Origin: Methylacidimicrobium sp. AP8 | GTDB lineage: Bacteria; Verrucomicrobiota; Verrucomicrobiia; Methylacidiphilales; Methylacidiphilaceae | Assembly: GCF_903064525.1 (NCBI RefSeq) | Contig: NZ_LR797830.1 | Coordinates: forward strand, 1,798,001-1,862,000 | Direction: 5' to 3' | DNA length: 64,000 nt | Shown: positions 27,815-47,211 of the stretch, in pieces | Position numbering within the stretch: position 1 is the first letter of the stretch | Layout: each line of letters opens with the position of its first letter | The notes under the pieces: model-generated | The model's database searches: none | Told to the model about the DNA's origin: nothing | What the model saw: only the letters and a program-made list of their open reading frames with translations | Program-made: the position numbers and the translations under genes

Positions 27815-27825
27815 GCCGCGGCCGC

Positions 27826-27842
27826 TAGCGGCCATTTCTCAC
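27826..27842 (+). repeat. single copy of the MITE terminal repeat (TAGCGGCCATTTCTCAC)
   Basis: These 17 bases are identical to the left end of the foldback element at 46541. They begin 11 bases after the stop of the ATPase gene and lie about 210 bases before the 3' end of the IS1380-like transposase remnant, so they may mark an end of that or another mobile element. No inverted partner was found on the far side of the remnants. Confidence 0.6.
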
Positions 27843-28054
27843 CAGTGCGAGCTTTCGCGGGAGAGAGGTGCCGGTTGAGTCGCTTGCGAGCAGTTCCGGC
27901 CGCGCAGAGCTCTTCATGAGGCAGGATCGAGCAAGATTTTCATTCGATTTGCCTTAACGCGAGCGCTGCAAAGCGCAAAAAGCCGGTTGTGGAGCAAGGC
28001 TCCGCCCGATCGTAGGCTTTGCGGAAGGAGAAGAGGTGGGGTTTTGATACCTGC

Positions 28055-28815
28055 TCAACAACGCAGCACTCGGAAGACGTGAGTAAAGAGGCTCTTCCAA
28101 GGATAGGCGCTACTCATCGAGAGGAAGACGCGGCGGACGCTGACTCGGACCAGCGTGCCGATCTTAAAGAGCTTGAGCCGTAGGGTGTCGACCTGGGCCT
28201 CGGCCCAGTCCGTTCCTCGCAGAGCCAGCCGTCGCAGCGCTTCGACCAGGGTGTAAGCGAGAGCCGAGAAGTAGAGGCGAAGTTGGTTGCTGGCCATTTG
28301 CGCGGTCGAGAGCCGGTCGGCAAAGAGGTAGAGTTGTTCCTTAATCCGATTCTCCATGTCGCCACGAGCACAGTAGAGCTTCTCGTAAAGGTTTTGGGCG
28401 GGCCACTCCTCGGTGGAGAGAGAGGTCACGACAAAGCGCGGATTCTCCCCTCTTTCCAGGTACTCGGCTTTGGCGACCACCCGGCGCTCCCTCGACCAGC
28501 TGCTCAAGGTGCGGTAGGCAAACTCGGTAAAGAAGCGGGCCGGCTTGCCACTCGACTCGTGCAGACGACGGGCTTGCTCCATCGACCCCTGAATGGTCCG
28601 GCACAAGCGCTCGTTGCGGGCCAAGCCGAAGAGGTAGTCGACTTGATTGGCTTCGCACCAAGCCATGATCTCTTCCCGGCAGAAGCCCGAATCGGCCCGG
28701 ACCACGATCCGGACTCCGGGCCAACGGGTACGGAGTTGTTCCACGATCCGGCTCACCTCCGTAAGGGAGCCCGCCGACGCATCCTGGTTCGATGGCCGAA
28801 GCCGGACGCCAAGGA
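28055..28815 (-). pseudogene. IS1380-family transposase, C-terminal remnant
   Basis: About 250 residues of a DDE transposase are open here, ending at 28055. They include LGVRLRPSNQDASAGSL, RIVVRADSGFCREEIMAWCE, VDYLFGLARN, and the late YCARGDMENRIKEQL motif with the catalytic Glu, all typical of IS1380 elements. The N-terminal 40-50% of a normal roughly 440-residue transposase is missing: at about 28810 it runs into an oppositely oriented IS1182-like fragment. It cannot be active. Confidence 0.85.
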
Positions 28816-29490
28816 GTTGACGTGGATGCGGAAGGGAGTGCCTTGGTGCTTTCGGCTCGGGTGAGTGTGTGCGCCAACGATGCCGGCGAGTTGGAAGCCG
28901 ACGTGCGGGCCATTCCTACGGAAGCCGGTCGGGTCCGTGCGGTGCTGGTAGACACGGGGTATACCAATGGCGAACAGGTCGAGGCTCTGCAGGCGGAGGG
29001 AATCGAAGTCTACTGTCCGATGAGGGCTGAAGCTCTGGAATGCCGCCGGCGATACGAGTTCCGGCCCACCGATCGTCGACGGGAGAAGCCCGTGGAATAT
29101 ACCGCCCCGTGGAGACGCAAGATGGTTGAGAAGCTCGCCAGTCCGGAAGGCCGCCGCCTCTATGCTCGACGCAAGCAGACGGTCGAACCGGTCTTTGGCA
29201 TCATCAAATCGGTAATGGGCTTCCGGGCGTTTCGGCTCCGCGGGCAAGCCAAAGTCCAGGGCGAATGGTCGTTGGTCTGCTTGGCGTACAACTTCAAGCG
29301 ACTTTGGAAGCTTGGGGGAGCCCGCAAGCCCGGTTCCCTTCCGATTGGATCCCTATGGTCGCTCTCCGCCGGAAAAACGGTCGTCGCATTGTCTTGGTTT
29401 TTAGGATTCCCGAGACAATCGCTCCCCATGCCGCATCGGACCGTCGCCGCATCGCGGCAAACTCTCGTACTAAGGCCGACAGGCTGCTAG
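28808..29490 (+). pseudogene. IS1182-family (IS5-like) transposase, C-terminal remnant
   Basis: The frame carries the second half of an IS1182-type transposase: QGVDVDAEGSALVLSARVSV, VLVDTGYTNGEQVEAL with the second catalytic Asp, and the Glu motif RRKQTVEPVFGIIKSVMGFR followed by VCLAYNFKRLW. The first half is absent. The sequence GACAGGCTGCTAG at 29478-29490 looks like the right inverted end of such elements, so the remnant probably ends there, exactly where the TPR gene's stop codon lies. Confidence 0.82.
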
Positions 29491-44448: not shown

Positions 44449-46362
44449 ATGCATTTTTCCGAAGAAGTCCTGCCGATCGTCGTGATCGGCCACGTCGACC
44501 ACGGAAAATCGACCCTCATCGGCCGCCTGCTCTTCGACACGGGCTCGGTTTCCGAGGGCAAGGCCGAGGAGCTGGCCCGAGCCGCTGCCGCCGAGGGGGT
44601 GCCCTTCGAGTACGCCTTCCTGCTCGATTCGCTCCTCGAGGAGCAGGCTCAGAACATCACGATCGACACCACCGAGATCCGCTTCCGGACACAGAAGCGC
44701 CGCTACGCGATCATCGACGCCCCCGGCCACAAGGAGTTCCTTAAGAACATGCTCTCCGGGGCGGCCCGCGCCCAGGCCGCGATCCTCGTGGTCGACGCCC
44801 GGGAAGGGGTCCGCGAGCAGACCCGCCGCCACGCGATGCTGCTGCCGATCCTCGGGATCCGCCACATCCTCGTGGCCGTCAACAAGATGGACCTGGTCGA
44901 CTTCTCCGAAGGCCGCTATCGGGAGATCGCCGCGGCCTTAAGCTCCCTCTTTGCGGAGCTGGGACTCCCGGAGCCGACCTCCCTCCCCCTCTCCGCCAAG
45001 CAGGGGGAGAACGTTGTCGCTCCGAGCGCTCGGATGCCGTGGCACCCGGGACCGGCACTCCTCGAAGCGCTCGATGCGGTCCCCTCCCCATCCCTCGAAA
45101 CGCTCCCGCTCCGCTTCGTGGTTCAGGACGTCTACCGCCGCGGGGAGGAGCGGCTGATCGCCGGCCGGGTGGAGACCGGCCGCCTCCGCGTCGGCGAAGA
45201 GCTCTTCTTCTGGCCCGGCCGCAAGCGGGCGCGCCTCCGCGCCTTCGCCGAGTGGCCTCCGGAATCGACGCCGCAGGAGGCCTCCGCGGGCCGGTCGACG
45301 GCCCTGATCCTCGACGAGGAGATCTTCGTCGAGCGGGGCATGATCGCCAGCTCCCGCGAAAAGCCCCCGATCGAGGCGACCGAGTTCCCCGCCAAGATCT
45401 TCTGGATCGGAACCGATCCCCTCCGCATCGGCGAGCCCTACGAGCTGCGGCTGGCGACCCAGTCGGCGGGAGCCCGCGTCACGGAGGTCGACCGGGTCCT
45501 CGACGCAGAGACCCTCTGCGTCCAGGATTCCGCGAAGCCCGGAGTCGAGGCCAACGAGATCGCCGAAGTGCTCGTCCGGACCCAGCGGCCGCTCGCGCTG
45601 GACAATGCTTCCGAAATCCCCCAGACCGGCCGGTTCATCCTCGCCCGCGACGGGCGCATCCTCGGGGGAGGCATCGTCCTGGGCGCCCGCTATCCCAAAA
45701 CTTCCCTACCCCCGGCCCACCGGAGCAGCCCCCTCTTCTGGACCGAGGGCGAGATCGACCGGAACGAGCGGGCCCGCACCCTCGGCCACCGCGGGGCCGT
45801 TCTCTGGTTGACCGGACTCTCCGGAGCCGGCAAATCGACCCTGGCGGTCCGGCTGGAAAGGGCACTCTTCCGCCGGGGGATCTGGGCCTACGTCCTCGAC
45901 GGAGACAACCTGCGCCACGGCCTCTCCAGCGACCTCGGCTTCAGCGCCGAGGACCGGAGAGAGAACATCCGGCGGGCGGCCGAGGCGGCCCGCCTCCTCG
46001 CCGACGCAGGTGCGGTCGCGATCGTCGCCTTGATCTCCCCCTTCCGGGCCGACCGCCGGAAGGCCCGCGAGATTGCCGAAGCGGCTGGTCTGCCCTTCCG
46101 GGAGGTCTTCGTCCACGCCCCGCTCGAAGTCTGCCGCTCCCGGGATCCCAAGTCGCTCTATGCCCGGGCCGAACGCGGGGAGATCCCCGAGTTCACGGGC
46201 CTCGATTCCCCCTACGAGGTCCCCGAAGCACCCGACCTCGAGCTCCCCACCCACCAGCTTTCGCCCGCCGAGTGCGTCGAGCGCCTGGCCAAGCTCGCCC
46301 TCGAGGCGATTGCCCTCCCGAACCGGCCTTCCCTGCGCGAGGACCCGGCCGCGAACATTTAG
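44449..46362 (+). CDS. cysNC: bifunctional sulfate adenylyltransferase subunit 1 / adenylylsulfate kinase
   Basis: A 637-residue fusion. The N-terminal CysN GTPase has P-loop GHVDHGKST (14-22), DTTEIRF, DAPGHKEFLKNM and the NKMD nucleotide motif, followed by two EF-Tu-like beta domains. The C-terminal CysC kinase (about 440-637) has P-loop GLSGAGKS (about 457), LDGDNLRHGLSSDLGFS, the lid region RRENIRR and IVALISPFRADR. Together with CysD it turns sulfate into PAPS for CysH. AAAGAGGG lies upstream of the ATG. The 3' flank carries no gene for 426 bases, only a MITE-like element. Confidence 0.96.
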   Translation: MHFSEEVLPIVVIGHVDHGKSTLIGRLLFDTGSVSEGKAEELARAAAAEGVPFEYAFLLDSLLEEQAQNITIDTTEIRFRTQKRRYAIIDAPGHKEFLKNMLSGAARAQAAILVVDAREGVREQTRRHAMLLPILGIRHILVAVNKMDLVDFSEGRYREIAAALSSLFAELGLPEPTSLPLSAKQGENVVAPSARMPWHPGPALLEALDAVPSPSLETLPLRFVVQDVYRRGEERLIAGRVETGRLRVGEELFFWPGRKRARLRAFAEWPPESTPQEASAGRSTALILDEEIFVERGMIASSREKPPIEATEFPAKIFWIGTDPLRIGEPYELRLATQSAGARVTEVDRVLDAETLCVQDSAKPGVEANEIAEVLVRTQRPLALDNASEIPQTGRFILARDGRILGGGIVLGARYPKTSLPPAHRSSPLFWTEGEIDRNERARTLGHRGAVLWLTGLSGAGKSTLAVRLERALFRRGIWAYVLDGDNLRHGLSSDLGFSAEDRRENIRRAAEAARLLADAGAVAIVALISPFRADRRKAREIAEAAGLPFREVFVHAPLEVCRSRDPKSLYARAERGEIPEFTGLDSPYEVPEAPDLELPTHQLSPAECVERLAKLALEAIALPNRPSLREDPAANI

Positions 46363-46540
46363 CCCGGCGCCACCGAAGCCTCCACTCCCTATACGCCGCA
46401 AGCCACTCCAGGCAAGCGGCCGCGCGGGCCTTTTGCCTCGCGCCGCGTCCGTGCGGTCTCCTGCAGGCGATGAAGCGCCGCCGGCCTGATCGCGCCGCGC
46501 CGGGTTGCGTCGGAAGGGGCGTCGCCAGGGAATCGGAACA
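46363..46540. other. gene-free flank between cysNC and the foldback element
   Basis: No protein-like frame is visible. An imperfect inverted repeat AGGCAA...TTGCCT around a GC-rich centre (about 46411-46438) may fold but lacks a T-run after it, so it is not called as a terminator. The rest shows no recognised structure. Confidence 0.4.
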
Positions 46541-46724
46541 TAGCGGCCATTTCTCACAAATTTCGTAGCCGAGGCGCCGCAAATGGGCTTGGGTGCGAGG
46601 CGGGCGCAGGTTTTCCACCGGAGCTGTATGAAGACATACTGCGAGGATGGAAAACCAAGCGGGACCGAAGCAGACGAGCCCGTTTTGCAAGCCGTAGGAG
46701 AAAGCTTGTGAGAAATGGCCGATA
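46541..46724. mobile_element. 184-base foldback, MITE-like element with 19-base terminal inverted repeats
   Basis: The ends are TAGCGGCCATTTCTCACAA (46541-46559) and its near-exact reverse complement TTGTGAGAAATGGCCGATA (46706-46724), with one mismatch. Inside, GGTTTTCCA pairs with TGGAAAACC around a centre GTATG-AAGA-CATAC, and further stretches on both arms (GCAAATGGGCT versus GCAAAACGGGCT on the other strand) also match, so nearly the whole element can fold on itself. No ORF is convincing. Both ends carry TA, compatible with a TA target duplication. A lone copy of the left end occurs at 27826-27842. Confidence 0.75.
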
Positions 46725-46788
46725 GGTCGCCCAGCCGGCATCCGGCGGCGTAGCTGTGGGCGTTGCTTGCTTCTACCCGCAGCCGCCC

Positions 46789-47211
46789 TCAGCGGCGTTC
46801 TCCTGGGGGAGAGGCCGCCGGGAGGCGGGACGGGACCGGGGCCTTCCAGATCGGGACGTCGGCCTTGAGCTTCTGGATCAGCTCTTCGGCGATCCGGAAG
46901 GCGGCCCCCCGCCTTTCGGCGGCGACGCGGAGGTAGAGGGAGGGCTCTCCGACGGGCACGATCCCCACCCGGTGGATGAGGACAAGGTCGTGGCAGCCCT
47001 CGCGGCGGGCCGTTTCCGCCGCGATCCGCTCGAGCTCCTTCCGGGCCATCGCCCGGTAGGCCTCGTAGTCGAGTGCGGCGATCGCTTTGCCCGCTTCCCG
47101 GCCGCGGACGACTCCGAAAAATTCGACCACGGCACCCGAGGAGCCGTCCAAGGGGAAGAGGAGCGAGGGACGGGCGATTGGACGGTCGACCAGAGAAATC
47201 GAGATACCCAT
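46789..47211 (-). CDS. moaE: molybdopterin synthase catalytic subunit
   Basis: Large subunit of MPT synthase, which puts sulfur from MoaD thiocarboxylate onto precursor Z. The 140-residue protein has GAVVEFFGVVRGREAGKAI, LDYEAYRAMARKELERIA, the HRVGIVPVGEPSLYLRV strand, and the catalytic Lys region IQKLKADVPIWKAP (KxxxPIWK). The C terminus (PAASPPGE) is short and ordinary. moaD ends three bases upstream and moaA lies before that, all on the same strand. Confidence 0.93.
   Translation of the reverse strand: MGISISLVDRPIARPSLLFPLDGSSGAVVEFFGVVRGREAGKAIAALDYEAYRAMARKELERIAAETARREGCHDLVLIHRVGIVPVGEPSLYLRVAAERRGAAFRIAEELIQKLKADVPIWKAPVPSRLPAASPPGERR

Follow-up and report, generated by a model that had tools for sequence, protein, structure and literature searches.

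The 178-bp sequence located between cysNC and a moaE-like gene of Methylacidimicrobium sp. AP8 very probably (probability around 0.92) belongs to a foldback non-autonomous MITE family of Methylacidimicrobium that depends for its movement on a transposase supplied in trans by an IS1380-family insertion sequence (IS) of the same genome. This reading relies on direct observations, namely copies, target duplications, empty sites, ends and targets shared with the IS, and open transposase frames. The first-pass annotation had already proposed a mobile foldback MITE, and the copies, the duplications, the empty sites and an autonomous element sharing its ends support it; the family is new but of a kind already well known. 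In this way, a probably recent MITE amplification and its likely helper are found in a single genome, in acidophilic methanotrophs of the phylum Verrucomicrobiota, and their co-residence makes it possible to test directly whether an IS1380 transposase, a relative of those of piggyBac, acts on a MITE in trans.

Borders and fold of the element between cysNC and moaE

The window, meaning the whole stretch of 64,000 nucleotides that was analysed, comes from a genome that is most likely that of M. thermophilum AP8, described as one circular chromosome of 2.3 Mb with 64.3% GC (PMC7907005); in a 464-kb sample of the window's genome the GC content was 64.7%. The features of the locus, in window positions, are the following:

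44449..46362, + strand: cysNC (sulfate adenylyltransferase subunit 1 / adenylylsulfate kinase), stop 177 bp before the left duplication
46540..46543, no strand: left 4-bp target-site duplication, ATAG
46544..46721, + strand: MITE core, 178 bp, 99.4% identity to the 45-copy consensus (one difference)
46544..46559, + strand: left terminal inverted repeat, CGGCCATTTCTCACAA, perfect 16 bp
46609..46657, no strand: inner hairpin of the foldback (GGTTTTCCA...TGGAAAACC)
46706..46721, - strand: right terminal inverted repeat, same 16 bases, TTGTGAGAAATGGCCG on the forward strand
46722..46725, no strand: right 4-bp target-site duplication, ATAG
46789..47211, - strand: moaE-like molybdopterin synthase catalytic subunit, convergent, end 63 bp past the right duplication

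The borders at 46544-46721 were set by comparing 45 copies. The inverted ends annotated previously are real but shorter than the 19 bases assigned to them, the perfect end being of 16 bp and the remainder corresponding to duplication bases; similarly, the near-perfect inverted repeat and the full-length fold were borne out, but the span of 46541-46724 takes in three bases of each duplication. With 178 bp the element has no room for a transposase and lies within the about 30-300 bp spanned by the MITE class, and its terminal inverted repeats are perfect over 16 bp. The RNA fold of positions 46530-46735 reached -95.7 kcal/mol compared to -65.3 (sd 4.1) for shuffled sequences (z -7.4), and none of the 200 shuffles folded as well.

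A full-length hairpin of such stability is also what would be found if a resident RNA element with a regulatory or structural role, for example a bidirectional terminator or a 3'-UTR hairpin, had been duplicated, the signs of transposition being secondary. Against this, no intrinsic-terminator-like or promoter-like site was found at the window MITE, and Rfam 15 gave no family above the gathering score, its sole match being below threshold and outside the element. That the folded transcript shapes the 3' ends of the convergent cysNC and moaE messages, as the first-pass annotation suggested, is a possibility, with no terminator-like site at this copy and a modest enrichment of convergent contexts among the copies.

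Copies, target duplications and empty sites

The search of the AP8 genome (one contig, 2,300,970 bases) gave 40 scored matches with 94-100% identity, and the 14-base end was detected 97 times with at most one mismatch, compared to 2 times for a reversed control pattern. Inspection of the individual loci left 45 copies that are full or near-full (85-100% of the consensus), plus truncated ones. The 45 have a median identity of 98.9% to the consensus, with nine copies identical to it and the window copy a single base off, so the amplification is probably recent. Identical 4-bp flanks were present at 34 of the 45 copies, compared to a mean of 13.8 and a maximum of 23 when the right flanks were shuffled, and the remaining 11 had no identical duplications. 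The duplications were mostly YTAR, with CTAG in 20 cases, TTAA in six, CTAA in three, TTAG in two, and TCAA, TTCA and ATAG in one each. Thus, the count of copies and the inspection of their flanks suggested in the first-pass annotation both gave positive results.

Empty sites were detected as well. The gap between cysNC and moaE measures about 460 bp in AP8. In three sister species, G006, G005 and G001, the aligned ends of the two genes lie only about 100-250 bp apart, and the MITE is absent. A second empty site was seen in the sister genome G004, where the two flanks of the copy at 533,724, once joined, align with no gap at the junction; in G005 they align with small gaps beyond the junction. 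Within the genus Methylacidimicrobium, six of seven genomes had matches to the MITE, compared to none of the 55 other genomes searched in the order. A resident structure had been expected to show no further copies and to be conserved at this locus in distant relatives, and the reverse was found. The duplications and empty sites demonstrate insertion, which argues against the duplicated resident RNA element, as do the MITE-free orthologous gaps and the lack of matches in the 55 genomes searched outside the genus.

Some copies have unequal 4-bp flanks (at 1,324,496, 1,291,341, 1,387,815, 1,966,360 and 1,864,167). At the first of them a single flank aligns with the ortholog, a pattern that suggests recombination between MITE copies with exchange of flanks, and the copies also represent homology for rearrangements. 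Single ends were considered as possible termini of a longer, autonomous transposon carrying the full 40-bp MITE end, a candidate that was rejected, as they are truncated MITEs whose sequences differ past the break. At four loci (L084, L101, L096 and L079) MITEs are located at the extremities of a different repeat; this is apparently an IS whose ends are GCAGCCTGTCGG-like, and it also seems to use YTAR/CTAG targets.

In G006, 90 ends belong to a CCTGCATGTCTCACA-type subfamily, and some of them form pairs spaced by 80-130 bp (C4:50648-50771, C31:11774-11897, C86:42905-43028 and C119:1052-1131, among others); these pairs suggest further, shorter MITE families. Several contigs of G006 end near such ends. 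No IS with these CCTGC ends was detected in G006, so this subfamily may have expanded through other transposases.

The IS1380-family insertion sequence and its relation to the MITE

Three further features of the window are relevant to the mobilisation of the MITE:

27829..28820, no strand: truncated IS1380-family insertion sequence, left end CGGCCATTTCTCACC, 98.5% identity to positions 4-992 of the reference IS (L117)
28055..28756, - strand: C-terminal fragment of an IS1380 transposase, 233 aa, NF033539 positions 194-418
28792..29490, + strand: remnant of an IS1182-family transposase, adjoining the truncated IS1380 copy

The 17-base match at 27826, beside transposase remnants, had been described as a lone end of the MITE and as a sign that a parent element had acted in this genome. 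The match and the remnants are real, and a likely parent was found, but the site is a decayed copy of that parent and not a lone MITE end: the match falls at the left end of a truncated IS1380-family copy, with CTAG in front (27825-27828) and its right end missing, which aligns to the reference along 989 bp with 98.5% identity. The transposase fragment scored 204.9 bits against NF033539 (cut-off of 180), and homologous intact frames in sister genomes scored up to 396 bits.

The autonomous element with the same ends that the first-pass annotation had proposed to look for was identified at other positions of the chromosome. The reference IS is complete, with inverted ends, 1710 bp (~1.7 kb) and a TTAG/TTAG duplication, and the IS at 509.8 kb (L094) has an open transposase frame of 449 aa and CTAG on both sides. 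The first 14 bases of the left end of the MITE are identical to the left ends of the latter (14/14) and of the window copy at 27829; base 15 is A in the MITE and C in the IS. Nine IS1380 copies in the AP8 genome align to the reference along all or nearly all of its length, and the ends consist of CCCCC, CCGCC or CGGCC followed by ATTTCTCACC. Their target duplications (CTAG, TTAG, CTAA and ATAG) are all within the spectrum of the MITE, including the unusual ATAG of the window copy. Therefore, MITE and IS have the same terminal bases and 4-bp duplications, whereas the MITE has no transposase and an unrelated body. An origin of this body by internal deletion of the IS was rejected, as only the terminal ~14 bases are common and the bodies are dissimilar.

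From these sequence likenesses we infer that the IS1380 transposase is the mover. It would bind the common ends (C[CG]NNCATTTCTCAC-like) and mobilise the MITE, which would insert at 4-bp YTAR targets (CTAG, TTAA, CTAA, TTAG and sometimes ATAG or a TGA-containing variant), with duplication of those 4 bp. A different transposase, from an IS5- or IS1182-family element with 4-bp palindromic targets as well, could be the mover if the likeness of the IS1380 ends were convergent; many other DDE transposases are encoded in the genome, and MITE copies adjoin the ends of another IS in several places. Nevertheless, among exact matches to the 14-base end genome-wide, the full-length bearer other than the MITE is of the IS1380 family, and the IS1380 targets show the same spectrum, ATAG included, which makes such convergence highly improbable.

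Relatives of the transposase with up to 74% identity are present in Acidobacteria and other phyla, where several of the IS1380 relatives read have ATTTCTCAC-type ends and YTAR flanks. The IS1380 copies of G006 and G004 have the same sequence ends and identity as in M. tartarophylax and in MAG STC_89. At three places, 468.1-470.0 kb, 328.4-330.3 kb and 1939.2-1941.1 kb, an IS1380 copy and a MITE adjoin with one CTAG in common, so one element sits inside the target duplication of the other. These three cases, against about one expected by a rough hand estimate, are not convincing as an excess of IS1380 copies next to MITEs.

Bacterial MITEs with the ends of known transposon families have been described, such as MITEAba12 (PMC6382973), MITEPye1, with IS1182-like ends, a long stem-loop and a mainly intergenic location (PMC11578231), and the TIMEs, with Tn3 ends (PMC4133298). 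The AP8 element is like them in being short, without transposase, and in having inverted ends of a known transposon family and direct repeats, and it resembles MITEPye1 also in its long stem-loop and mainly intergenic location; it is unlike them in its IS1380-family partner, its 4-bp YTAR duplication and its 45 copies in 2.3 Mb, many of them exactly in native stop codons. The Chunjie MITE of Geobacter uraniireducens, judging by the title cited in PMC4133298, is inserted in an operon without disturbing it. REP/REPIN sequences are short palindromes associated with TnpA_REP (Y1) and without target duplication, whereas the AP8 MITE has 4-bp duplications and a DDE-family partner. IS1380 transposases serve as outgroup of the piggyBac superfamily (PMC10813416), which makes similar 4-bp TTAA-type duplications and whose reported minor variants TTAG, CTAA and TCAA are also found at the MITE; however, piggyBac is eukaryotic, and the commonest target of the MITE is CTAG, not TTAA. 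In the literature searched, of partial coverage, neither an IS1380-driven MITE nor a description of the AP8 family was found.

Stop codons, gene context and conservation of the hairpin

The position of the copies with respect to genes was analysed with one codon-based gene-calling method after excising each MITE, and compared to the CTAG, TTAA, CTAA and TTAG sites of the 464-kb sample (20% of the genome) with the same gene caller. Only 7 of the 45 MITEs were in coding sequence, compared to 484 of 736 YTAR sites in the sample (p 5e-12), and therefore coding insertions are avoided or lost. Sixteen copies were located exactly in a stop codon, a number that rises to 17 if the damaged one at 424,653 is included. 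Insertions into stop codons are frequent because the YTAR target contains TAR: they represent 17 of 39 non-coding insertions (43.6%), and stop codons account for 82 of 252 non-coding YTAR sites in the sample (32.5%; one-sided p 0.10). In all ten cases with comparable orthologs, the gene adjacent to the MITE ends at the same residue as the proteins of sister species, and therefore the stops tested are native and not created by the insertion; the orthologs read for three of these genes all end in TGA.

Active targeting of stop codons by the transposase, rather than YTAR specificity plus selection, would agree with the share of insertions in stops, with the native condition of those tested and with the copy at 746,517, whose TGA-containing duplication is likewise a stop codon. 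We consider it unlikely, and a special preference for stop codons was discarded, the excess over the share expected from YTAR sites not being significant with the 464-kb sample. In the YTAR-plus-selection reading, when a stop codon is hit the protein would be left unchanged, because YTAR contains TAR and the duplication restores the stop. Survivors would be found in stop codons and between genes, above all convergent ones, because copies in coding bodies would mostly be lost; this role of selection is likewise inferred. That the target holds a stop that the duplication restores would account for persistence in a gene-dense genome, about a third of the non-coding targets being stop codons whose genes keep an unchanged protein.

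Convergent contexts were modestly enriched (14 of 36 versus 50 of 240; p 0.01 and 0.03 in two tests, uncorrected for multiple testing). The hairpin persists in the copies of sister species and in older copies, with fold energies of about -59 to -102 kcal/mol. Changes on both sides that keep the pairing numbered 103 over 28 sequences, compared to 23.8 when the same substitutions were placed randomly, although these sequences are related and the 103 pairs correspond to few independent events. Among 23 copies of sister species, compensatory changes affected 16 of 64 pairs, 7 in the ends and 9 inside. Gene conversion from arm to arm would produce the same pattern. Since the compensatory changes affect both ends and interior and convergent contexts are in excess, selection on the hairpin is possible. 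That the full-length hairpin is itself selected, either because the transposase acts on it as DNA or because, as RNA, it processes or terminates convergent transcripts, seems rather doubtful; if true, a MITE compatible with stop codons would provide ready-made 3' ends for genes genome-wide. The compensatory pairs in diverged subfamilies and the convergent excess would also fit the duplicated resident RNA element discussed above, but selection against insertion upstream of genes predicts the same excess, and with the evidence for insertion this explanation is very unlikely.

Beyond the transposition of the MITE, some observations on individual stops were made. At the genes at 260,269, 802,240 and 1,559,186 the stop at the MITE is TAG, compared to TGA in all the sister-species orthologs read, and the TTAA target of the copy at 1,400,919 constitutes, according to the gene caller, the stop of both convergent genes. 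Diverged MITE ends begin at the same native stop in the orthologs of the gene at 1,706,985 in G006 and G004, and in that of the gene at 746,517 in G006, reflecting either an old common insertion or a site used repeatedly.
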